64,000 nt of DNA, taken from positions 682,001 to 746,000 of the forward strand of contig NZ_CP015103.1 in assembly GCF_002214505.1 (NCBI RefSeq), in the 5' to 3' direction. The notes under the pieces were generated by a model. It did no database searches and was not told where the DNA came from. It saw nothing but the letters and a program-made list of their open reading frames with translations. Origin of the DNA: Thermococcus siculi (lineage in GTDB: Archaea > Methanobacteriota_B > Thermococci > Thermococcales > Thermococcaceae). A program made the position numbers and the translations under genes. Numbering within the stretch: the first letter of the stretch is position 1; every line of letters starts with the position of its first letter. Positions 925 to 41,607 of this stretch are shown here, piece by piece.

Positions 925-1919
925 ACAAGACCGTTAAGTACATGATACTTCTCCTCCTGCTCTTCGCCCTCATAACGATGCCCCTGACGGTGCCGGTGTT
1001 CAAGAGCTCCACCCAGTACAGCATGTTCAACAAGAACTGGGACGGTACCTCAAGGTTCGCAAAGCTCGCCTATCTAAAGGGTAAAGAGGTCGTCCCCATC
1101 TTTGAGTCCTTCGATCTTTCCAACATCAGCGAGAGGAACGGCGTTCTCCTCATAATCGGTCCCAACATGACCTTCACCGGGGCTGAAATAGAGCAGATAA
1201 AGCTCTTCCTTGAGCGGGGAAACACCCTCTTCATAGCGGACGACTTCGGAACCGGGAACGAGATACTCCGCGCCCTCAACGTTCCCGTTGGCATATCCAA
1301 CTACCCGCTCTGGGACTTCTTCTACGAGAACGACGACAGGTTAGTGGTCTCGGTGAGGATAGAGGACCCGCTCCTGGCCAGAAACGTGACGAGGGTGATA
1401 ACCAACGAGCCATCTGGCATAATAGTCACGAGGAAGGGTGAGGCCTACGTTAGCAAGGTGGCCATGATAAACCTCCACAGGAGGATGTACCCGATAATGA
1501 CGGAGCTGAAGTACGGGAAGGGCAGGATAGTGGTGCTCTCAGACCCCGACGTCCTCGCGAACATGCAGTTCAAGGAGAACAGGCAGTTCCTGAGCAACCT
1601 CGTCGATTACCTGGGGGGCGACGTCTTCTACTTCGACGAGGCCCATCACCCGGACTTCAACCTCTACACCGCCGGAACCGTCACGATAACCCGCGTCCTC
1701 CCGAGGGATAGGGCCATAAAGCTCATACTTGGCATAGCGACGCTCATACTGCTCTGGGAACTCGGTGTTTTCAGTCTCTTGGGAGGGTTTATCAAGAGGT
1801 TCATCTCACGCTTCTTCCATAGGAAGGTTGACGTTGATGAACTTGCCCTCTCCCTGGCCAGGGAGAAGGGCTGGGATGAGAATGAGGTTATGGAGATGCT
1901 GAGGAGGATGGGTGGTTGA
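921..1919 (+). CDS. DUF4350 domain-containing membrane protein
   Basis: 332 residues. An N-terminal membrane helix (about residues 7-27) is followed by an extracytoplasmic domain with a Rossmann-like core: LLIIGPNMTFTGAEIEQI and NTLFIADDFGTGNEIL are typical of DUF4350 (glutamine-amidotransferase-like fold without catalysis). FYFDEAHHPDFNLY is the conserved motif just before the C-terminal membrane helix (about 267-290). A basic cytoplasmic tail follows. The start overlaps the preceding stop and the stop lies one base before the MoxR start, so translation is coupled. The DUF4129-DUF4350-MoxR-DUF58 set is a widespread neighbourhood; its biochemical role is not settled. Confidence 0.8.
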   Translation: MNKTVKYMILLLLLFALITMPLTVPVFKSSTQYSMFNKNWDGTSRFAKLAYLKGKEVVPIFESFDLSNISERNGVLLIIGPNMTFTGAEIEQIKLFLERGNTLFIADDFGTGNEILRALNVPVGISNYPLWDFFYENDDRLVVSVRIEDPLLARNVTRVITNEPSGIIVTRKGEAYVSKVAMINLHRRMYPIMTELKYGKGRIVVLSDPDVLANMQFKENRQFLSNLVDYLGGDVFYFDEAHHPDFNLYTAGTVTITRVLPRDRAIKLILGIATLILLWELGVFSLLGGFIKRFISRFFHRKVDVDELALSLAREKGWDENEVMEMLRRMGG

Positions 1920-1920
1920 G

Positions 1921-2841
1921 ATGATACTGAAGAAGATACAGGCCGAGGTCGGAAAGGCCCTGGTTGGAATGGATGATACGGTAGAGCTGATGACCATAGC
2001 CCTGATAGCGAACGGACACGTGCTCCTCGAGGGCGTTCCAGGAATAGCCAAGACGACGCTCAGCAAGAACTTCGCGAGCACGCTCGGTCTGAAGTTCTCG
2101 AGGATACAGATGACGCCGGACATACTGCCCGCGGACATAATAGGCCACACCTTCTATGACATGAGAACCGGGGAGTTCAAGATAAGGAAGGGTCCGATCT
2201 TCGCCAACGTCGTTCTGGTTGACGAGATAAATCGCGCCTCCCCAAAGACCCAGAGCGCCCTCCTAGAGGCCATGGAGGAGAGGCAGGTCACCATCGAGGG
2301 CCTTCCGCTCAAGCTACCAGAACCATTCGTCGTCCTGGCGACGAGGAACCCCGTCGAGATGGAGGGCGTCTACGAGCTTCCAACGGCTCAGGTCGACCGT
2401 TTCATGATGAAGATAGACATATCCTACCTCCCCGAGGAGACCGAGAAGGAGATGCTGAGGAGGAAGAGCCTTGGGCAGTTCTCCGAGGCGAGGCAGGTCG
2501 TCCTCCAGAGCGAGCTGGCCCAGGCCAGGAGGGACGCCATGAAAGTCCACGTGAGCGAGGCCATAATAGACTACATCTACGACGTCGTCAAGGAAACCAG
2601 GCTGGACGAGAGGGTGATACTCGGAGCCTCCCCGAGGGCCGGTGAACATCTCCTATACGCCGCCAAGGTCAAGGCTTACCTGGAGGGTAGGGCCTACGTC
2701 ATCCCGGACGACATAAAGTGGCTCGCCGTCCCTGTGGTGGCCCACAGGATAGTCGTCAAGCCCGAGTACGAGGTTGAGGGAATAGACGGCAAGACCGTAG
2801 TCAGGGAGACCCTTGAGCGTGTAGAGGTGCCGACGGAATGA
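1921..2841 (+). CDS. MoxR-family AAA+ ATPase
   Basis: 306 residues. Walker A is GVPGIAKTT, Walker B with its extension is VVLVDEINRASPKTQSALLE, and sensor 1 is VLATRNPVEMEG, all typical of the MoxR branch of AAA+ proteins. The family acts as chaperone-like remodellers, usually paired with a von Willebrand/DUF58 partner; the DUF58 gene follows directly (ATGA overlap). An in-frame GTG exists at 1912, but the ATG at 1921 has GGGTGG six bases upstream and is preferred. Cytoplasmic, probably a hexamer working at the membrane with DUF58, DUF4350 and DUF4129 proteins. Confidence 0.92.
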   Translation: MILKKIQAEVGKALVGMDDTVELMTIALIANGHVLLEGVPGIAKTTLSKNFASTLGLKFSRIQMTPDILPADIIGHTFYDMRTGEFKIRKGPIFANVVLVDEINRASPKTQSALLEAMEERQVTIEGLPLKLPEPFVVLATRNPVEMEGVYELPTAQVDRFMMKIDISYLPEETEKEMLRRKSLGQFSEARQVVLQSELAQARRDAMKVHVSEAIIDYIYDVVKETRLDERVILGASPRAGEHLLYAAKVKAYLEGRAYVIPDDIKWLAVPVVAHRIVVKPEYEVEGIDGKTVVRETLERVEVPTE

Positions 2842-4121
2842 AGCGAGCGGCGGTTCTCCTCTCCCTCGCTGCGGTGGTTTCGGCAACTTCCTACCTCCTG
2901 GGCAGTCCGGCCGCGGCACTGGTGGGCGTGGCCATAATGGCCCACTACTCCCTGGCCAGGGCGGGTTTTAGGCCACTGGTTAAGGTTGAGAGGCACCTGC
3001 CCGAGAGGGGAACCGAGAGGGAGCCGCTGAAGGCCGTCGTCAAAATCGAGAACCTTTCTTCCCTTTCTGGAATTGTTCGCATCAGGGAGACGTCGGATAA
3101 GGCCTTTGCCAGGGAGCTGAAGGTTTTCCTCAGGCCGGGGGAGAGGAAGTACCTCGAGCAGACCGTGGTTCCCCAGGCTAAGGGGAGGATAAGCCTGAGG
3201 GCCGGGGCGGTCTTTGAGGACGAACTGGGTTTGTTTAAAAAAGACTTCCCGGTTATCGAGAGCGGGGACATGACAGTGTTTCCATCACCGAAGAGCATAC
3301 GTGAGGCCATGAGGGAGAAGAGGCAGATAGAGGCCCTCTCAGAGGCCGAGAAAGCCCTGGGGATCGGGGCCGAGACGCTGGACTTCGAGGAACTCAGGGA
3401 ATTCCTCCCCGGGGACGACATCACCAAGATAGACTGGAAGGCCACCTCGAGGCTCCAGAAGCTCATCGTCAGGGTCTTCAAGAGGGAGACGATGGCGGAC
3501 GTCTATCTGCTTATCAACGTCGATCCAGGCTTCCACCGCGAGCTTAAGACCGGGAAGACCGACTACCTGGTTCTCATAATCTCCCAGCTCGTTGCCTACT
3601 TCAGGCGCTTCGGCCACAATGTGAGGGTCATTGCCTACGACGAGCGCGGCGTTGTCAAGGTCGTGGACCACGTCAGTGATCCCTTCTCCCTCATCCAGGA
3701 GCTGGGGCTGAGGGGGGAAAAGGGCCTGCCGGCGCTCAGGCCCGCAGCTATTTCGGGAGGCTCGTCCCTAGGAAGGCTGGTGACCCGGCTCAAAGGCGGT
3801 TCCGAGGCCCATGGAATAATGAAAGCTGCCCTCAAGGTCCCCACGGGTTCCTTCGTCCTCATGGTCGATGACCTCGGCCTCCATCCCGGTGAGATCATGA
3901 AGGCCTCCCGGCTGCTCCAGAGGAGGGCCTCCAGGGCGGCGCTGCTCTACCCGAACCCCGTTTTCTTCGTGGATAAGGGGGGGCTTAACGAGGAAGAGCT
4001 TGAGGTTCTCTACAAAGCCTATCGCGAGAGAAAAACGGTCATGAAAAAAGTCATGGCGTGGGTTAGGGTCATCGAGGTCGGGCCAAAGGATCTCCTGCCT
4101 GTGGTGGTGAGGAAGCTATGA
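2838..4121 (+). CDS. DUF58 domain-containing protein
   Basis: 427 residues. Two N-terminal hydrophobic segments (about residues 5-40), then a beta-rich region, then the DUF58 core with REFLPGDDITKIDWKATSRL and QKLIVRVFKRE at about residues 190-220. A vWA-like C-terminal half follows (VYLLINVDPGFHRE, FVLMVDDLGL). This is the usual partner of the MoxR ATPase encoded immediately upstream. The start overlaps the MoxR stop and the stop overlaps the next start, showing tight coupling. A role in maturing or assembling surface components is inferred from the neighbourhood. Confidence 0.9.
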   Translation: MKRAAVLLSLAAVVSATSYLLGSPAAALVGVAIMAHYSLARAGFRPLVKVERHLPERGTEREPLKAVVKIENLSSLSGIVRIRETSDKAFARELKVFLRPGERKYLEQTVVPQAKGRISLRAGAVFEDELGLFKKDFPVIESGDMTVFPSPKSIREAMREKRQIEALSEAEKALGIGAETLDFEELREFLPGDDITKIDWKATSRLQKLIVRVFKRETMADVYLLINVDPGFHRELKTGKTDYLVLIISQLVAYFRRFGHNVRVIAYDERGVVKVVDHVSDPFSLIQELGLRGEKGLPALRPAAISGGSSLGRLVTRLKGGSEAHGIMKAALKVPTGSFVLMVDDLGLHPGEIMKASRLLQRRASRAALLYPNPVFFVDKGGLNEEELEVLYKAYRERKTVMKKVMAWVRVIEVGPKDLLPVVVRKL

Positions 4122-4672
4122 TAGGGCTGATGGCGGCGTTGCTCACGGGCATAGTCCTGAAACAGTGGGTCTTTGCCCTCGCAGTGATACCCTATTTACT
4201 GCGGCTGAAGGGCCGGAACCCGGCTCTCATAGCCTTCTACGCCTACGTCATGGTCATCGCCCTCACCGTTCCCGGCGAGTCCCTCTACACCCACTCCGGT
4301 CTGGTGTCTGCCGTTTCGGTCTCTGTCTCCACGTTCCTGCTCCTGGACGAGGTTCTGAGGGGTGTCAAATTAGACCGGGTGGAACTGATAATCTCCGGGA
4401 TTCTGCTCGTTTCGGCGGTCTACGATTACGCCTTCGTGGCGGCGCTGGTGGGGGTATCCATCTACCTAGCGTACCTCCGCTTTGGTAGGGTGGTCTACTA
4501 TTTACTCGGCTGGTTTGGTGTTTCCTCCCTTGCTCTCTATCTCCTCGGAGATACCCTTCCCGACCGCGTTGCCCAGTCCTTCGTTATAATCGGGCTGGGC
4601 CTGATCTTCCTCCTTCTCGCTGAGAGGAAGGACGTGGAGTTCCTGGAGGTGAGACTCCTTGAGGAGGAGTGA
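4118..4672 (+). CDS. Small polytopic membrane protein of unknown function
   Basis: 184 residues and almost entirely hydrophobic, with five to six predicted membrane helices and a short acidic tail (EVRLLEEE). It overlaps the DUF58 stop by four bases and its 3' end overlaps the archaeosortase gene by 14 bases, so it lies inside the surface-assembly operon. I do not recognise a named family. Position suggests a membrane partner of the MoxR-DUF58 machine or of the sortase, but nothing in the sequence proves it. Confidence 0.7.
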   Translation: MIGLMAALLTGIVLKQWVFALAVIPYLLRLKGRNPALIAFYAYVMVIALTVPGESLYTHSGLVSAVSVSVSTFLLLDEVLRGVKLDRVELIISGILLVSAVYDYAFVAALVGVSIYLAYLRFGRVVYYLLGWFGVSSLALYLLGDTLPDRVAQSFVIIGLGLIFLLLAERKDVEFLEVRLLEEE

Positions 4673-5447
4673 GGGATTTGCTATTTTTTCTATGTTGTTT
4701 GCCGTGGTGCTGTTCGCGATAATGCCTACCCCTCCGATGCTCTATCTTAGTCTTATTTACTCAGTGGCTGTTCTGCTATTGAGGAATTCCATTAAGCCTA
4801 AACCCCTCAGATTGGACTGGCCGACTGTCCTTGGAGCTGGATTTATTGTTATTTCACCCCTGTTTGTTTTGTTCAAGTGGGGTGAAACTCCAAGCCCCTC
4901 AATGTTCCAAGCGCTATTGTTCCTTGGCGTCTCTTTGATACTGTTTGATTTTAGAACAATGGTCTTACCGGATTCTATTCTCCTTTTAGAAATATTGTTA
5001 TCTTGGATTACGCGGACGGGGATAGGCATCTATACGCTTAACTGGTTCAGCGGCCTCTTCGTTGACATGACCTCCTACCTGGTCCGCGGCTTGATAGACA
5101 TTTTCAACGTGCCCATACTAATGAGGGGGAACGTCGCCGTCGTGAGGAACAGTATAGTTATCATAGGTTTTGGTTGTTCTGGTTTAGACGCCTTCGTTCT
5201 TTACCTCTTGGCTTCCCTCTTTCTGATCTACCTGAGAAAATCCGACAGAGGGGAAGCGGCTTTGCTTCTTCTAGGTTCCTTGGGTATAATTCCCCTCAAC
5301 GCGGTCAGAATATTCACTCTTCTCGTTATAGGCTACCACAGCGGCATCTCCTTCCTTGAGCTCTTCCACTCCCACCTCGGGGACTTGATGTTTTTAGTGT
5401 ATGTCTTCTTCTACTGGTGGCTGGTGCTGAAGAAGCTCGGGGAGTGA
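4659..5447 (+). CDS. Archaeosortase/exosortase-family transpeptidase
   Basis: 262 residues, about eight membrane helices. The family's catalytic triad is visible in order: Cys in GFGCSGLDAFVLY (about residue 172), Arg in PLNAVRIFTLL (about 213) and His in LFHSHLGDLMF (about 239). Archaeosortases cut secreted proteins at a C-terminal tripartite signal (short motif, membrane helix, basic tail) and probably transfer them to a lipid. The start is a TTG with GGAGGTGA five bases upstream, overlapping the previous gene. The first 350 bases are clearly AT-richer than the upstream operon. The two proteins encoded convergently just downstream share a V-P-F-F-S C-terminal tail and are the obvious candidate substrates. 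Which named archaeosortase subtype this is cannot be told by eye. Confidence 0.88.
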   Translation: MRRSEGFAIFSMLFAVVLFAIMPTPPMLYLSLIYSVAVLLLRNSIKPKPLRLDWPTVLGAGFIVISPLFVLFKWGETPSPSMFQALLFLGVSLILFDFRTMVLPDSILLLEILLSWITRTGIGIYTLNWFSGLFVDMTSYLVRGLIDIFNVPILMRGNVAVVRNSIVIIGFGCSGLDAFVLYLLASLFLIYLRKSDRGEAALLLLGSLGIIPLNAVRIFTLLVIGYHSGISFLELFHSHLGDLMFLVYVFFYWWLVLKKLGE

Positions 5448-5477
5448 AACCTAAAATCAAATAAAAAGGGAAAGCGT

Positions 5478-8400
5478 TCAGTGCCTCCTGAAGAACCAAA
5501 AGACTCCAATTGCGAGCAGGACTGCTAAGGCTCCTGCGGTAGTGGTGTCGCTGAAGAATGGAACGTTTGTTAGGTCGACGCTCTCCGAGTAATCTATTGA
5601 GCCATCCGCGAGCTCCTCATCTGTGGTTGATGTACCCATCAAGTCAACGACTTTTGGTGAACCCGGATCCACAGCACCCCCCGTGCCGTCGCCTAGGAAC
5701 ACAAGGACATTGAAGTTGATCTCATTGGGATCCCCGAGAATTGTCCTTGGAACCACAACCTGGATGACGTTGTTCGTCGTTGAGGCTATGGCGTAGTAGT
5801 CCCCAGGCACTTCGGTGAGTGTGGAGTCGTAGACCTGTACCCCGGGACTTCCAAAGATGGTAGAGTCAGGGACTCCAGAAATGGAAAGATCTACCACCAC
5901 CCAGTAATCCCATCCGGGAGTGTACGTCAGGGAGCCATCATAGGGTACTCCCTGGTTTGCTCCGCTTCCCGTGTTTACTGGAATCGCTATGATGGGGCCT
6001 CCAAACTTTCCAATGGCGGAGAGGTTTTTGAGTTTTATCGAGAAGTACACGTATGACCCGTCAGCCCTTACGCGGACGCTCTCCATATCGTAGCTGTCCC
6101 TGTCCCACGGATAGTTCCTCGTTGAGTGCTCGTCATCCACGGCGTCGTTCCATACGTACTCTCCGTCCTTGATCTCTCCGCTGTTTGTAGCCGGGAGGTA
6201 TGTGCCCCATGAGCTCTCGTCCCCTGTAAGGAGGGCCTGTACGTTTGTAGGGATGCTACTCGGGGTCAGGTAAACGTGGTACTCCCTTCCGCCGTTATCA
6301 TCTTGGGCACTGTTGTTTGTGAAAACGAAGTCTATTGAACCCCAGCTTGCTTGAGTGCTTATCCTGGCCTTCCAGAAGCCGTTCTCGTACGTCATGGTCG
6401 TGTCGGTAACGTCTTTCCAGTCATCGTGGCCCCAGTGGAGGATCACTGAAGTGGTATCGTTCAGTGGCCCCCCGCTCGCGTTGTAATACACAGTGATAGC
6501 ATCACCAGCTAGTGGTCTATCGGGGGTGGTGGTGACGGAACCTGCTATCGGCTCGCTCAATAGCTCTCCGAAAAACGAAGAGTTCCAAGGGCCTGAATAA
6601 ATGTAAAACGTCGCATCTTCGTTGAACTTTATTTCATCGACTATCGCCAGCGTCCTCCAATCCTCCCCCCGGTTGAACGAGGCAGGACCGGGTATTACAT
6701 AGGCCGCCAGTGTGTCGGTCTGGGCGTTGTAGTAGCCGGCCACTTTTCCATCGTAGAGCCAGGTTCTCTGAATGTTTGCTTTGCCGTTCTTCAACATGTC
6801 GCTCACACCGGGTGAAAATCCTGTCTTGACGTAGATGGTTCTGGTGACGTTTCTGTAGGTTACCCTGATGTAAGGCCACCCCTGACGGAGCTCGATGTAC
6901 TTGGTAAAACCCCCGTTTGGACTCTTTGCCGCTACTACGACCTTTCCATCCGTTCCGTCGTCAACTATCCTAAGCTGGTAGTAGTTATTCTCATAGGTTC
7001 CATCGTCGTAGGCATCACTCAGCCCCCAGACGTGGTTCCCGTCGTTGTAGTCCCCCTCCGTGCCGCTCCAGAGGGCCATCGAGTTCCCAATGACGACGTG
7101 ACCATTTGAGTCGAAAAGCCAGCCTATCCTCCCCCCGATGGGATCGATGACCGCGTACACTCTATCGTTCTGGATAACTATCTCGTTGTCGTTATCGTCG
7201 TCCACGTTCCTCCAGTAGGCTGTTAAGGATTTATCATTGTCATTTAGCCACTGGGCGGCGTATGCGTATGGTAAGGCGTGCCTGAGGTGAGAGGTGATCT
7301 CCTTCTCCCATCCGCTTATCGGGCCGGTTATTCCATCATGCCAGCCAGTCTCGTAGAGGTTTGCTATCAAAGTGGTCCAGGACAGCTCGACGAGGTTGTT
7401 GTCTACTCCATCGTTCTTCAGATTCTCAAGTTCCTGATATGCGTCCCACCACAGACCGCCCGCGGACTTGGGGCAGTTGTAGGGGTAGTAGTTGATGGCC
7501 CAGTCCTTGTACCAGGCGTTCCTGTCGGCGTTTCCATCGCCGTCAACGTCCCCAGTTCCGCCGTAGCCGCTCGTCCCGCCGATTTCGCTGTACGTGCCCG
7601 GGGTGGGCCAGTAATCTCCGCCGTCGCCCCAGAAGCGTCCCCCCTGGCTTGGGTTCCAGGAGAGAACCTCATCCAGTCTGACCGCCTGTATCCACGGATG
7701 GGCGGCAACGTACTCAACCGCGTAGATGTATCTCTGAGGATCGGTCTGCCAGTTGGCAACACCTGCGGCTTTCTCCCAGTCATCTGCATAGACGTCTATC
7801 TGCTCCTGATCGCTGTCCAGTGCCAGATCGAGCCAGTGTTCCTTTATGCTTCTCCAGCTGTCCGAGTCCCAGTCGTTTGAGTTATAGATGGCGTCTTTGA
7901 GCCAGTCATCAATGAAAAACACCTTCAGCAGGCCGTTGGGGAGCTGGTAAACCTTGCGCGGGTTAGAGACCCCGTTTCCGTGGGTTTCATCGTCCAGTAT
8001 GACAGCGTGAACATACGGTTCCCCGTCTGCAGGGTCAACGGCGGCGAAGTACTCCCACGGGTCGCTTTTAACACCATTCACTGGGTCCCCATCGCTCATC
8101 TTCGTCTCCCACACCCTTTCAACGACCCACGCTACCCTGGGATTGTAATGGAAGACATCCCATATCAACTCATTCTCCTTGGCAAGGCTTTTTACGTTCA
8201 CGTCCACTGGGAAGAAGGGCATTATGTGCTGACCGTATGCGGACGTCAGGATACTTATCCACCCCTCGGAGATTCCTTTACTGATTTCGTCCCTGAAGAT
8301 GAAGTCCCCGCAGTTGGGGTCGTTCCAGAGCATCGACTCGAGGAGCACACCGCTCATGTGGAGATTAACAGGCACCTTGTATCGGTCGTGGACGCGGAGT

Positions 8401-9158
8401 ACCTCGTCAAAACCCGTCCCGATGCCGCCGCAGAAGACGTCGGTGTAGCCAATGTGCTGGTTGCCGTGGTGGACGAAGGCCACCTTCGCGGTTCCAACGT
8501 GGTCATCGCTTGTGAAGTAGTACTGGAGGTTGTCGGGCATGGAATCAGTCACCCTGTAGGGAGTGGAGAAATCTTTGGCCGAAATGACCTGGAAGTGCAC
8601 CTGTCCGCCCGGCGGGAAGTTGGGTATCTTATCCTTGTAAAGTTCCACTTCTATGAAGTCGTACTCCGAGTTGAGGGTTATGGCCTTTACCGCATCGTTC
8701 CTAGTGCTCCAGTCGGGGAGGTAGACGTTATAATTGTTTGTGTCATATATGGCGACCGCGAGATCCCACTCTATCCCGCTCTGGATGCCGTTCCCGCTGC
8801 TGTCTGAGAGGTAGTCTGGAAGCCAGGTCTGGCCTCCCGCCGCAAAATCTAGGAGGATGTACCAGTTGGCGTTTTCCTCCTCGCCGATAGCCAGGTTTGT
8901 AACATCTATGCGCATCGTTATTGTATCTGGGTTCTCTGAGTAATAGAACGCTATGATGTCCCTCGCGTAGTCATCCCCGTCATTGTACCAGTACCAGAGG
9001 TCGTCGTGACCGTCCAGGGCCTTGACGTTGTCATAGACCCAGTTGAAGGGGTTCCCGTCAGCTGTGGGGTAGGCGGATGCCTGATTGACCCAGAGGTTGG
9101 GAACGAGGGAGAGTAATATGAGCGAGGTTGTTATTAAAAGGCCGAACATTCTCCCCAT
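5478..9158 (-). CDS. Secreted GH57-type starch-acting enzyme with CBM25-like and glucodextranase-C-like domains
   Basis: About 1226 residues. Order: signal peptide (LLITTSLILLSLVPNL...ASA, to about residue 29); a beta-rich domain to about 215; a GH57-like catalytic region (about 225-600) with HHGNQHIG, AYGQHIMPF, VVERVWE (probable nucleophile Glu near 347) and VILDDETHGNG (probable acid/base Asp near 390); a long beta domain; a CBM25/53-like starch-binding module (about 865-960, with VILHWGHDDWKDV); and a C-terminal module resembling the glucodextranase C domain (about 970-1190). The protein ends in VPFFS, a membrane helix and FRRH. The GTG at 9167 is in frame, but ATG 9158 has GGGTGAT four to five bases upstream. 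That ribosome site lies inside a TGM-like motif. Likely degrades alpha-glucans at the cell surface; substrate specificity is not readable. Confidence 0.85.
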   Translation of the reverse strand: MGRMFGLLITTSLILLSLVPNLWVNQASAYPTADGNPFNWVYDNVKALDGHDDLWYWYNDGDDYARDIIAFYYSENPDTITMRIDVTNLAIGEEENANWYILLDFAAGGQTWLPDYLSDSSGNGIQSGIEWDLAVAIYDTNNYNVYLPDWSTRNDAVKAITLNSEYDFIEVELYKDKIPNFPPGGQVHFQVISAKDFSTPYRVTDSMPDNLQYYFTSDDHVGTAKVAFVHHGNQHIGYTDVFCGGIGTGFDEVLRVHDRYKVPVNLHMSGVLLESMLWNDPNCGDFIFRDEISKGISEGWISILTSAYGQHIMPFFPVDVNVKSLAKENELIWDVFHYNPRVAWVVERVWETKMSDGDPVNGVKSDPWEYFAAVDPADGEPYVHAVILDDETHGNGVSNPRKVYQLPNGLLKVFFIDDWLKDAIYNSNDWDSDSWRSIKEHWLDLALDSDQEQIDVYADDWEKAAGVANWQTDPQRYIYAVEYVAAHPWIQAVRLDEVLSWNPSQGGRFWGDGGDYWPTPGTYSEIGGTSGYGGTGDVDGDGNADRNAWYKDWAINYYPYNCPKSAGGLWWDAYQELENLKNDGVDNNLVELSWTTLIANLYETGWHDGITGPISGWEKEITSHLRHALPYAYAAQWLNDNDKSLTAYWRNVDDDNDNEIVIQNDRVYAVIDPIGGRIGWLFDSNGHVVIGNSMALWSGTEGDYNDGNHVWGLSDAYDDGTYENNYYQLRIVDDGTDGKVVVAAKSPNGGFTKYIELRQGWPYIRVTYRNVTRTIYVKTGFSPGVSDMLKNGKANIQRTWLYDGKVAGYYNAQTDTLAAYVIPGPASFNRGEDWRTLAIVDEIKFNEDATFYIYSGPWNSSFFGELLSEPIAGSVTTTPDRPLAGDAITVYYNASGGPLNDTTSVILHWGHDDWKDVTDTTMTYENGFWKARISTQASWGSIDFVFTNNSAQDDNGGREYHVYLTPSSIPTNVQALLTGDESSWGTYLPATNSGEIKDGEYVWNDAVDDEHSTRNYPWDRDSYDMESVRVRADGSYVYFSIKLKNLSAIGKFGGPIIAIPVNTGSGANQGVPYDGSLTYTPGWDYWVVVDLSISGVPDSTIFGSPGVQVYDSTLTEVPGDYYAIASTTNNVIQVVVPRTILGDPNEINFNVLVFLGDGTGGAVDPGSPKVVDLMGTSTTDEELADGSIDYSESVDLTNVPFFSDTTTAGALAVLLAIGVFWFFRRH

Positions 9159-9161
9159 AAT

Positions 9162-9178
9162 AATCACCCTTAGTGATA
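9162..9178 (-). promoter_or_regulatory. TGM-like operator (Thermococcales glycolytic motif) before the GH57 gene
   Basis: On the minus strand the sequence is TATCAC-TAAGG-GTGATT, one base off the known consensus TATCAC-N5-GTGATA bound by Tgr/TrmBL1. The right half forms the ribosome site of the GH57 gene, four bases before ATG 9158. A weak T-rich TATA candidate lies near 9205-9212, so the motif would sit just downstream of transcription start, the placement known for repressed glycolytic and maltodextrin genes. Confidence 0.6.
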
Positions 9179-9237
9179 CTTACAGGATCATGGGAGAACA
9201 GCCGTAAAAATGTTTTGGCAAAGGTAGAAAAGGAAGG

Positions 9238-10137
9238 TCAGTGCTTCCTAAAGAGCACTACCACACCGAGGATAATGGCAAGGATAACGGCGGCATTGCT
9301 GAAGAATGGGACACTGGAGATGTTAATATCCTCGTAATAATCTATTGCCCCATCGCTGACTTCATCTTCTGTACTAGTAGCATCTGTCATTGCGTCCAGA
9401 ACATCTGAGCCGGATCCTCCGTCGGGATCAAGTGCGTTTGCACTTCCATTTTCTCTAACAACCCCAAGCTCAACCCGTATGGTGGAAGGATCCCCAAGCT
9501 CTGACTTTTTCACCCTTATCTCAACGACGTCGTTGGTGGTGGAGGCTACGAACTCGTCATCTGATGTTGAGATGTCAACCCACTCGTTGTTCTGCACTTG
9601 GATTACATCCAGCGGTGAACCCCCGTTCCAGACTGGTACGCCGTCTCCATAAACAGGCTGTCCATCCTGAACCTGGGAATTTGCGAGGTCTACCAATATC
9701 TGGTACTCCCAGTTGGCGTTCCCATCAGAGGCGACTTTGGTATCTGACAAATAGCCGAACCATACCTCCCCACTATCCTGACCCTGATCAGTGTCTATCG
9801 TTATCATTATTCCAGGAGCTCCCTCCTCACCAACGACGTCGAGGTCGTTGAACCTGATCATGAAGTATAGGTAGGTGTCGTCTGCAGTAATCCGGAACTC
9901 AAGTATATCTACCCTCTTATCGGGATTCGCAAAGACCGTTCTCTCGTCTTCGGCGGCGTCCTTCCATACCCATTCTCCCACATCTTGATAAAGTTGTGCT
10001 GTATTTATGTTTTGATTCCACGTGCTTGCTGTCCAATCAGATGGATCACCATCAACCGTTACAGTATGGGCACTCACCATCCCCATCATTCCACCCAGAA
10101 CCATCAGGGCCATAATCAGCACGGCAAACCTCTTCAT
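9238..10137 (-). CDS. Secreted glucodextranase-C/CBM9-like protein with archaeosortase-type tail
   Basis: 299 residues. Signal peptide MKRFAVLIMALMVLGGMMG...SAH, then a domain opening with VDGDPSDW, and a body (WVWKDAAEDERT, ILEFRITADDTYLYFMI) that matches the order and motifs of the C-terminal 220 residues of the neighbouring GH57 protein (YVWNDAVDDEHS, SVRVRADGSYVYFSI). Both end DE-x(2)-DG-x-IDY-x-E followed by VPFFS, a membrane helix and a basic-His tail. The ORF extends upstream to 10206, but ATG 10137 has a GGGGGGACAG ribosome site and starts a clean signal peptide. A TATA candidate lies near 10225-10234. It is 79 bases upstream of the GH57 start on the same strand. Probably a surface glycan-binding companion to the enzyme; catalysis is not expected. 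Confidence 0.8.
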   Translation of the reverse strand: MKRFAVLIMALMVLGGMMGMVSAHTVTVDGDPSDWTASTWNQNINTAQLYQDVGEWVWKDAAEDERTVFANPDKRVDILEFRITADDTYLYFMIRFNDLDVVGEEGAPGIMITIDTDQGQDSGEVWFGYLSDTKVASDGNANWEYQILVDLANSQVQDGQPVYGDGVPVWNGGSPLDVIQVQNNEWVDISTSDDEFVASTTNDVVEIRVKKSELGDPSTIRVELGVVRENGSANALDPDGGSGSDVLDAMTDATSTEDEVSDGAIDYYEDINISSVPFFSNAAVILAIILGVVVLFRKH

Positions 10138-10402: not shown

Positions 10403-11404
10403 ATGGGCGAACCCACCAGGGCCAAAAAATACTGGGACTTAATCACAATCATCGCGCTTTCAATCCTCCTTGACCTGCTTATCTTCTACTCTCCGGACAG
10501 CCTCCTCAGAAAGGTCCTGGGCTTAACCTTCGTCCTCTTCTTCCCGGGCTACGTCTTCATAACAGCGCTGTTCCCCAACAGGAAGGAACTCGACAACCTG
10601 GAGAGGCTGGCCTTAAGCTTCGGCCTGAGCATAGCGATAGTCCCCCTCATCGGCCTGGGCCTCAACTATACTCCCTTGGGAATAAGGCTCATCCCCATCC
10701 TCGTGAGCCTGACTATCTTCAACGTCGTTCTCGCCCTCGCGGCGATCTACCGCAGGGCAAAGGCCTTCGAACCTTGGATTCCGTGGATAACCCTCGACCG
10801 GATCAGGGAGGAGCTGGAGTGGGAGCACTCCAGCAGGATTGACAAGGCACTCACGGTCTTCCTCATAATCGCCATCCTGGCCTCAATCGGGACCCTAGGC
10901 TACGTAATAACCCACCCGAAGCCCGGCGAGACCTTCACCGAGTTCTACATCCTCGGGCCGGGGGGGAATGCCACGGACTATCCTACCGACCTCCGGGTCG
11001 GCCAGAACGGGACGGTGATAATAGGCATTGTCAATCACGAGCACAGGAACGTCACCTACTATGTCCAGATGTGGCTGGTGAACCTCACGTGGGACAACAC
11101 TACTAACACAACGATTATTCACGAGATGTATCCGATGCCGGGCTGGTTCAACGTGACGCTTCCACACGTCCCCGTGGATATTGAGGGCAACTGGACTCCC
11201 CAGTTTGAGAAGAACTACACCTTCAGCATCGACAGACACGGAAAGTGGCAGGTCTGGTTCCTCCTCTTCAAGGACAACCAGCCGAAACTCCCACCAGCGC
11301 CGCCTGATGGGAACTACGCCGAAACCGACGCGAGGAACCTCATACTCGACGCCATCAACGGGACGATACAGAGCCTGAAGCTGAACATTGAGGTGAAGCC
11401 CTAG
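10403..11404 (+). CDS. DUF1616 domain-containing membrane protein
   Basis: 333 residues. The N-terminal half carries four membrane helices (about 14-30, 38-55, 70-90, 94-113) with the DUF1616 signature LGLTFVLFFPGYVFITALFP and LERLALSFGLS. A fifth helix near 149-168 leads to an extracellular beta domain rich in N-x-S/T sites (NVTYY, NLTW, NTTNTT, NVTL, NWT, NYT). GGTGGTGG precedes ATG 10403, and a TTTTAAA box lies near 10367. The family is common beside archaeal glycosylation genes; the AglB gene follows. Function unknown. Confidence 0.8.
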   Translation: MGEPTRAKKYWDLITIIALSILLDLLIFYSPDSLLRKVLGLTFVLFFPGYVFITALFPNRKELDNLERLALSFGLSIAIVPLIGLGLNYTPLGIRLIPILVSLTIFNVVLALAAIYRRAKAFEPWIPWITLDRIREELEWEHSSRIDKALTVFLIIAILASIGTLGYVITHPKPGETFTEFYILGPGGNATDYPTDLRVGQNGTVIIGIVNHEHRNVTYYVQMWLVNLTWDNTTNTTIIHEMYPMPGWFNVTLPHVPVDIEGNWTPQFEKNYTFSIDRHGKWQVWFLLFKDNQPKLPPAPPDGNYAETDARNLILDAINGTIQSLKLNIEVKP

Positions 11405-40974: not shown

Positions 40975-41607
40975 ATGAGATGGGTTATCCATGCGGTACT
41001 TGTACTGATATTAGGTTTCGTAGCTTCCGTGGTTGTGGCATCCCCCAATGTTGTGATAAATGAGATTATGTACGATCCACCGACCTCCATGGGCAGTGAC
41101 TATGACTACGAGTGGATCGAACTTTACAATCCCACAGACGCTGACGTTGCCATCGGGGGATGGGTCCTTAAAGACGCTGGAGGGGGCGGGTATACTTTTC
41201 CACAGGAGTCAATCATTCCTGCTGGTGGGTACGTTATTGTCGCTCGCGACGCCACTGCGGTAAAGGGATACTATGTTACAGACGGCTCTTTCGATGCCAC
41301 CGCGGTTTACGGCGATGCAACATTCACCCTGAACAATAACGGGGACACAATTACTCTGTTGGATGATCAGGGGAACATTGTCGATGAAGTTCAGTATTCA
41401 CCAAGCTGGGGAGCGAATGGGAATGGTAAGACCCTAGAACGCAGGGATCCGAATGGTTCATCAAGCGATCAATCCAGCTGGGCGGAGAGTGAGAAGGATG
41501 GAGGAACTCCCACTTATGCCAACACTGTACATGCCCCATTCTTTGGAGCGCCGTTGGTGGTGATCATTCTCATGGCGGGCATCCTCTTTTCCTTCCGGCG
41601 TCGGTAG
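40975..41607 (+). CDS. Secreted lamin-tail-domain protein with archaeosortase-type C-terminus
   Basis: 210 residues. Signal peptide (VIHAVLVLILGFVASVVVA), then a lamin-tail domain opening with NVVINEIMYDPP and YEWIELYNPTDADVAIGGW and continuing GGYVIVARD and TFTLNNNGDTITLLDDQGN. The protein ends APFFG, a membrane helix and FRRR, close to the VPFFS tails of the two secreted proteins at 5.5-10.1 kb. GGTGGTAATTA precedes ATG 40975. Probably displayed at the surface; lamin-tail domains often bind nucleic acid or support secreted nucleases, but no nuclease motif is present. Confidence 0.85.
   Translation: MRWVIHAVLVLILGFVASVVVASPNVVINEIMYDPPTSMGSDYDYEWIELYNPTDADVAIGGWVLKDAGGGGYTFPQESIIPAGGYVIVARDATAVKGYYVTDGSFDATAVYGDATFTLNNNGDTITLLDDQGNIVDEVQYSPSWGANGNGKTLERRDPNGSSSDQSSWAESEKDGGTPTYANTVHAPFFGAPLVVIILMAGILFSFRRR

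Follow-up and report, generated by a model that had tools for sequence, protein, structure and literature searches.

A candidate archaeosortase subtype of Thermococcus and its putative VPFF[S/G] C-terminal sorting signal

Overview

The window analyzed here (the whole 64,000-nt stretch of the Thermococcus siculi genome) encodes an archaeosortase of no named subtype, which, as the best explanation of our observations and one that we hold to be very likely, acts on proteins with a [V/A]-P-x-F-[S/G]-helix-basic tail, fixing them to the cell surface. Since the enzyme and these tags are present or absent together, the tail is very probably cut by the enzyme, with surface fixation as the result. With somewhat less confidence, we regard the enzyme as a probable hyperthermophile-specific subtype with its own signal (VPFF[S/G]-CTERM) that covalently anchors glycosidases, carbohydrate-binding proteins, and peptidases and that forms, beside the universal CGP signal, an optional cassette gained and lost with its substrates. 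Family membership, the conserved triad, the tail architecture on unrelated protein bodies, co-occurrence, and co-loss are read directly from the sequences; recognition, cleavage, transpeptidation, and lipid attachment by the enzyme we infer.

The archaeosortase

The archaeosortase gene (positions 4659 to 5447, forward strand) has a TTG start and encodes a 262-aa membrane protein; the gene overlaps its upstream neighbor by 14 nt, which points to co-expression and no more than that. By its profile matches, the product is a member of the exosortase/archaeosortase superfamily: it scores 53.5 bits against PF09721 (cut-off, 25.7) and 52.1 bits against TIGR04178 (cut-off, 23), the latter model being matched by 13/13 of its orthologues. 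C173 (GCSG), R217 (NAxRIF), and H239 (HSHxGD) are invariant in an alignment of the 13 orthologues, so that the Cys-Arg-His triad recognized in the initial annotation is upheld. No other exosortase or archaeosortase was found in the complete 2.03-Mb genome. The AlphaFold model, which derives from a shallow alignment, is helical (pLDDT 77.5, with low confidence around the His), and no PDB relative was found by sequence or by fold. An apparent 459-aa fusion of the enzyme with the product of the upstream gene, in genome G020, was rejected as an out-of-frame extension.

No subtype model scores above its cut-off on the window enzyme. When the 13 orthologues were compared with NCBIfam, archaeosortases A, B, D, and E gave no match at an E value of ≤0.01, and the ArtF model matched three orthologues (best E value, 2e-4, where a true ArtF scores 361 bits). 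We class the enzyme as a new subtype of archaeosortase that has a cognate signal of its own, likewise new; no NCBIfam subtype or signal model reaches its cut-off.

Tailed proteins of the window

Two genes convergent with that of the enzyme encode secreted proteins with similar ends. The first (5478 to 9167, reverse strand) specifies a GH57 glycosidase with CBM53 and glucodextranase-C domains (Pfam) that ends in VPFFSD-helix-FRRH (...NVPFFSDTTTAGALAVLLAIGVFWFFRRH; tail at about 5481 to 5567) and is found in only six genomes, all of them enzyme positive. The second (9238 to 10137, reverse strand; the reading frame extends to 10206, with the likely start at 10137) specifies a 299-aa beta-rich protein ending in VPFFSN-helix-FRKH (...SVPFFSNAAVILAIILGVVVLFRKH). 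It shares 39% identity with residues 980 to 1229 of the GH57 protein and is thus related to the C-terminal domain of the latter; PF09985 is matched by five of the nine members of its family, and its AlphaFold model (pLDDT 78, from a shallow alignment) is beta-rich, with no significant match in a fold search. A third secreted protein (40975 to 41607, forward strand), encoded between guaB and nadB, has a lamin-tail domain (LTD; PF00932, 100 bits) and ends in APFFGA-helix-FRRR (...HAPFFGAPLVVIILMAGILFSFRRR). Remoter LTD homologues, mostly from enzyme-negative genomes, have no tail at their ends.

All three proteins possess an N-terminal signal-peptide-like segment, and their tails, noted initially from the sequence alone, are confirmed by a tail profile (E values of 2.9e-12, 3.3e-12, and 4.7e-10 for the GH57, 299-aa, and LTD proteins, respectively). 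They are the only matches at an E value of ≤5 in the 2.03-Mb genome, for a profile built partly from them. A hydrophobic and basic C-terminal tail occurs in only 5 of 57 nonoverlapping open reading frames of the window: these three, the archaeosortase itself, and a 295-aa protein. For three of so few to be these proteins is more than chance would give.

The guaB-nadB interval, which holds the LTD protein in the window, holds an unrelated tailed protein in genomes G033 and G044 (L065:3181-4527 and L066:2278-3621), as if it were an exchange site for unrelated tailed surface proteins across species.

Architecture of the tail and its protein bodies

The tail consists of [V/A]-P-x-F-[S/G] (x usually being Phe), a hydrophobic helix of 13 to 18 residues, and then at least two Arg/Lys residues. 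Among eight bodies, each represented by one protein, the Pro and the second Phe are invariant, the first Phe is present in seven, and the next residue is always Ser or Gly; deviant tails in enzyme-positive genomes read VPVFS, VPMFS, VPFLS, and VLFFG. At least six unrelated body families bear the tail: the GH57 enzyme, its glucodextranase-C-like relatives, and a C1 peptidase family form one linked group, and further families comprise LTD proteins (one fused to GH18), Spherulin4-type proteins, proteins of 410 to 454 aa and of 490 aa, and others, including singletons. Helix length and sequence differ among these unrelated bodies, and the motif is common to them. Tailed genes can also adjoin one another, as do those for a Spherulin4-like protein and a 410-aa protein in G017 (L070:2548-5277) and those for a relative of that Spherulin4-like protein and an LTD protein in G048 (L078:3645-5805).

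The initial annotation had found the PFF motif unfamiliar, and indeed none of the NCBIfam models for sorting signals attains its cut-off on those tails that were scanned. The CGP-CTERM model (TIGR04288) is absent among the tail matches, and the tails contain no Cys-Gly-Pro. A literature search for the string VPFFS found it in only two papers, on HCV and myeloperoxidase.

A variable cassette within its host operon

The enzyme gene comes last in an operon ordered DUF4129/Ig, DUF4350, MoxR, DUF58, 184-aa membrane protein, and archaeosortase; beyond it lie the two convergent genes and, after them, a gene for DUF1616. In the window, the MoxR ATPase and DUF58 genes (1912 to 4121, forward strand) belong to this host operon and are not specific to the system; the gene for the 184-aa membrane protein, directly upstream of the enzyme (4118 to 4672, forward strand), and that for the DUF1616 membrane protein (10403 to 11404, forward strand) form the left and right flanks of a variable cassette. 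The gap between these flanking genes measures −18 to 169 bp in enzyme-negative genomes versus 824 to 5,731 bp in enzyme-positive ones, and in 10 genomes that keep the host operon, the enzyme is missing and, with it, any convergent tailed gene.

MoxR homologues exist in every good genome, and matching MoxR-DUF58 operons without the enzyme were read in Thermococcus and in other genera. The proposal that the MoxR-DUF58 operon is the dedicated assembly partner was therefore abandoned, given that the orthologous operon also occurs in at least 10 enzyme-free genomes: found whether or not the enzyme is there, it serves the enzyme gene as a genomic host and would be, at most, a general partner.

Cassette decay is seen in G015, where the enzyme gene and the tail beside it have both been truncated at their ends by a deletion. 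The enzyme frame is kept to ...FHSHLGD, just past the catalytic His, and then runs into the antisense of the convergent neighbor; the neighbor, which is also frameshifted, retains its tail only to ...QVPFFSGNVAMG, just past VPFFSGNVAMG, before the junction. A search with the tail profile found no other clear tail in this genome.

Co-occurrence of enzyme and tail

Enzyme orthologues are present in 14 of 94 Thermococcales genomes, all of the genus Thermococcus. Outside Thermococcus, no orthologue came up when 115 genomes of the phylum were searched with an enzyme profile, a scan of genome contigs recovered only four loci (all from Thermococcus MAGs), and no plasmid relative was found. Two tail profiles, one made from 15 tails and a wider one from 30, were run on the 94 genomes; they were seeded mainly from enzyme neighbors, and many of the later matches lie elsewhere in the genomes. 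The wider profile yields 40 matches at an E value of ≤1.3e-3, beyond which lies a background of mostly partial matches, and translated matches are located at the extreme C termini of open frames.

Clear VPxF[SG] tails, numbering one to five per genome, occur in 13 of 14 enzyme-positive versus 4 of 80 enzyme-negative genomes (Fisher P = 1e-11) and, among the 74 high-quality genomes, in 11 of 12 versus 1 of 62 (P = 3e-11), although these P values overstate independence because the genomes are related. The one enzyme-positive genome without a clear tail is G015. At 11 of the 14 enzyme loci, a tailed gene is the neighbor of the enzyme; G015 retains a remnant only, and the other two loci, those of G048 and G058, have DUF1616 directly after the enzyme, with tails elsewhere in the genome. 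When 22 genomes are placed on a tree of five operon genes, some of whose deep nodes are weakly supported, the enzyme switches state at least four times, and an intact enzyme agrees with the presence of tails in 21 of the 22, the exception being G063. The suggestion of a dedicated enzyme-tail system is thus borne out, as is the association that such tails were expected to show with the enzyme, but not its strictest form, in which the two always coincide: the four enzyme-negative genomes with PFF-type tails, all draft MAGs, are G050 (86% complete) and G055 (94%), with VPFF and VPLFS tails and no operon; G061 (73%), with a VPLFS tail and no detected enzyme; and G063 (85%), with a VPTFS tail and an intact operon that lacks the enzyme.

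These four drafts would also be expected if the tails were plain C-terminal membrane anchors, alike by shared descent or tail shuffling, on which the archaeosortase does not act; a helix with basic residues suffices as a stop-transfer anchor, and several of the tailed bodies are mutually homologous. We nevertheless consider this improbable, in that unrelated bodies share the motif while the helix varies in length and sequence, nearly all enzyme-negative genomes are without tails, and G015 has lost the ends of enzyme and tail in one deletion.

Proposed mechanism and significance

If the archaeosortase acts on these tails, its substrates would be exported by way of the N-terminal signal peptide, and the C-terminal tail would hold the exported protein. 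The Cys-Arg-His site would then cleave the protein at the PFF motif or close by and pass the new C terminus on to an acceptor. A membrane lipid is the probable acceptor by analogy with ArtA of Haloferax, the precedent from which the same kind of chemistry is proposed for the VPFF enzyme. Glycosidases, carbohydrate-binding proteins, and peptidases would thereby be secured to the exterior of the cell.

To our knowledge, and in the literature searched, no archaeosortase has been studied experimentally in Thermococcus. The candidate pair supplies an enzyme and a signal for the surface anchoring of proteins in this genus, and its few substrates make tests by deletion and mass spectrometry simple. 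The tail might also prove usable as a heat-stable anchor for surface display, and annotators gain two new models, one for the enzyme subtype and one for the VPFF[SG] tail.

Comparison with known systems

ArtC and its PEF-CTERM signal (TIGR03762/TIGR03024), as compared on the basis of NCBIfam models and one secondary paper, resemble the window system in fold family, in the Cys-Arg-His motifs, and in a P-x-F followed by a helix and basic residues, but the window system falls well below both cut-offs, has F in place of E and then S/G, and is confined to Thermococcus in our survey. Of the archaeal subtype models, ArtC scores highest on the window enzyme (41.5 bits), and it weakly matches all 13 orthologues (best E value, 3.9e-13); PEF_CTERM matches 4 of 30 tails at an E value of ≤1 (best, 0.019). 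It is nonetheless unlikely that the window system is just the already known pair of archaeosortase C and PEF-CTERM substrates, the ArtC cut-off being 100 bits and the best PEF_CTERM score shown, on a VPMFSN tail, being 14.6 bits against a cut-off of 23.

In Haloferax, PGF-helix-basic tails are processed by ArtA, whose substrates are lipid anchored (PMC7157517, PMC9263693). Like the window system, ArtA combines a three-part C-terminal signal with a multipass cysteine enzyme and surface-protein substrates; it differs in its PGF signal, in lipid anchoring that is shown experimentally, and in critical residues that are Cys/Arg/Arg (Cys173, Arg214, and Arg253 in Haloferax volcanii [PMC9263693]), whereas the window enzyme has Cys-Arg-His.

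ArtF (TIGR04293) belongs to the same superfamily and also occurs in Thermococcales, but its enzymes are short (about 166 to 176 aa), and its neighbor ends in VPEFPFLEP or the like, without a helix and basic tail. Nine Thermococcales genomes have the short ArtF-type gene (in G019, an ArtF at 361 bits), three of them without VPFF tails; five genomes with an intact VPFF enzyme, and the decayed G015, are among its carriers. At three loci (L127:6115-7450, where the enzyme scores 361 bits, L128:6315-7070, and L129:2853-3617), the ArtF-type gene is followed by one for a secreted protein of 237 to 254 aa that ends in VPEFPFLEP/KP... and lacks a helix and basic tail; the two may possibly be a one-to-one enzyme-substrate pair. 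Two other archaeosortase-family genes, ArtE-like but below cut-off (L097:1225-2212 and L098:1483-2568), lie beside small proteins tailed APIPVPVY-helix-KQRE and APLSWQG-helix-SKR.

Least probable of all is that another protease reads the VPFF tail and the archaeosortase has other substrates: four genomes carry tails without a detected enzyme, and the CGP-CTERM tails of all genomes imply that another C-terminal processing enzyme probably exists, but the genomes with ArtF-type enzymes form another set, in which these enzymes have their own neighbor with its different C terminus, and the neighbors of the window-type enzyme are tailed at most loci. CGP-CTERM (TIGR04288) is itself a C-terminal sorting-type tail of Thermococcales, from which the PFF signal had rightly been distinguished at the outset: it is carried, independently of the archaeosortase, by every one of the 94 genomes (12 matches in that of the window), and the CGP and VPFF signals are therefore separate.
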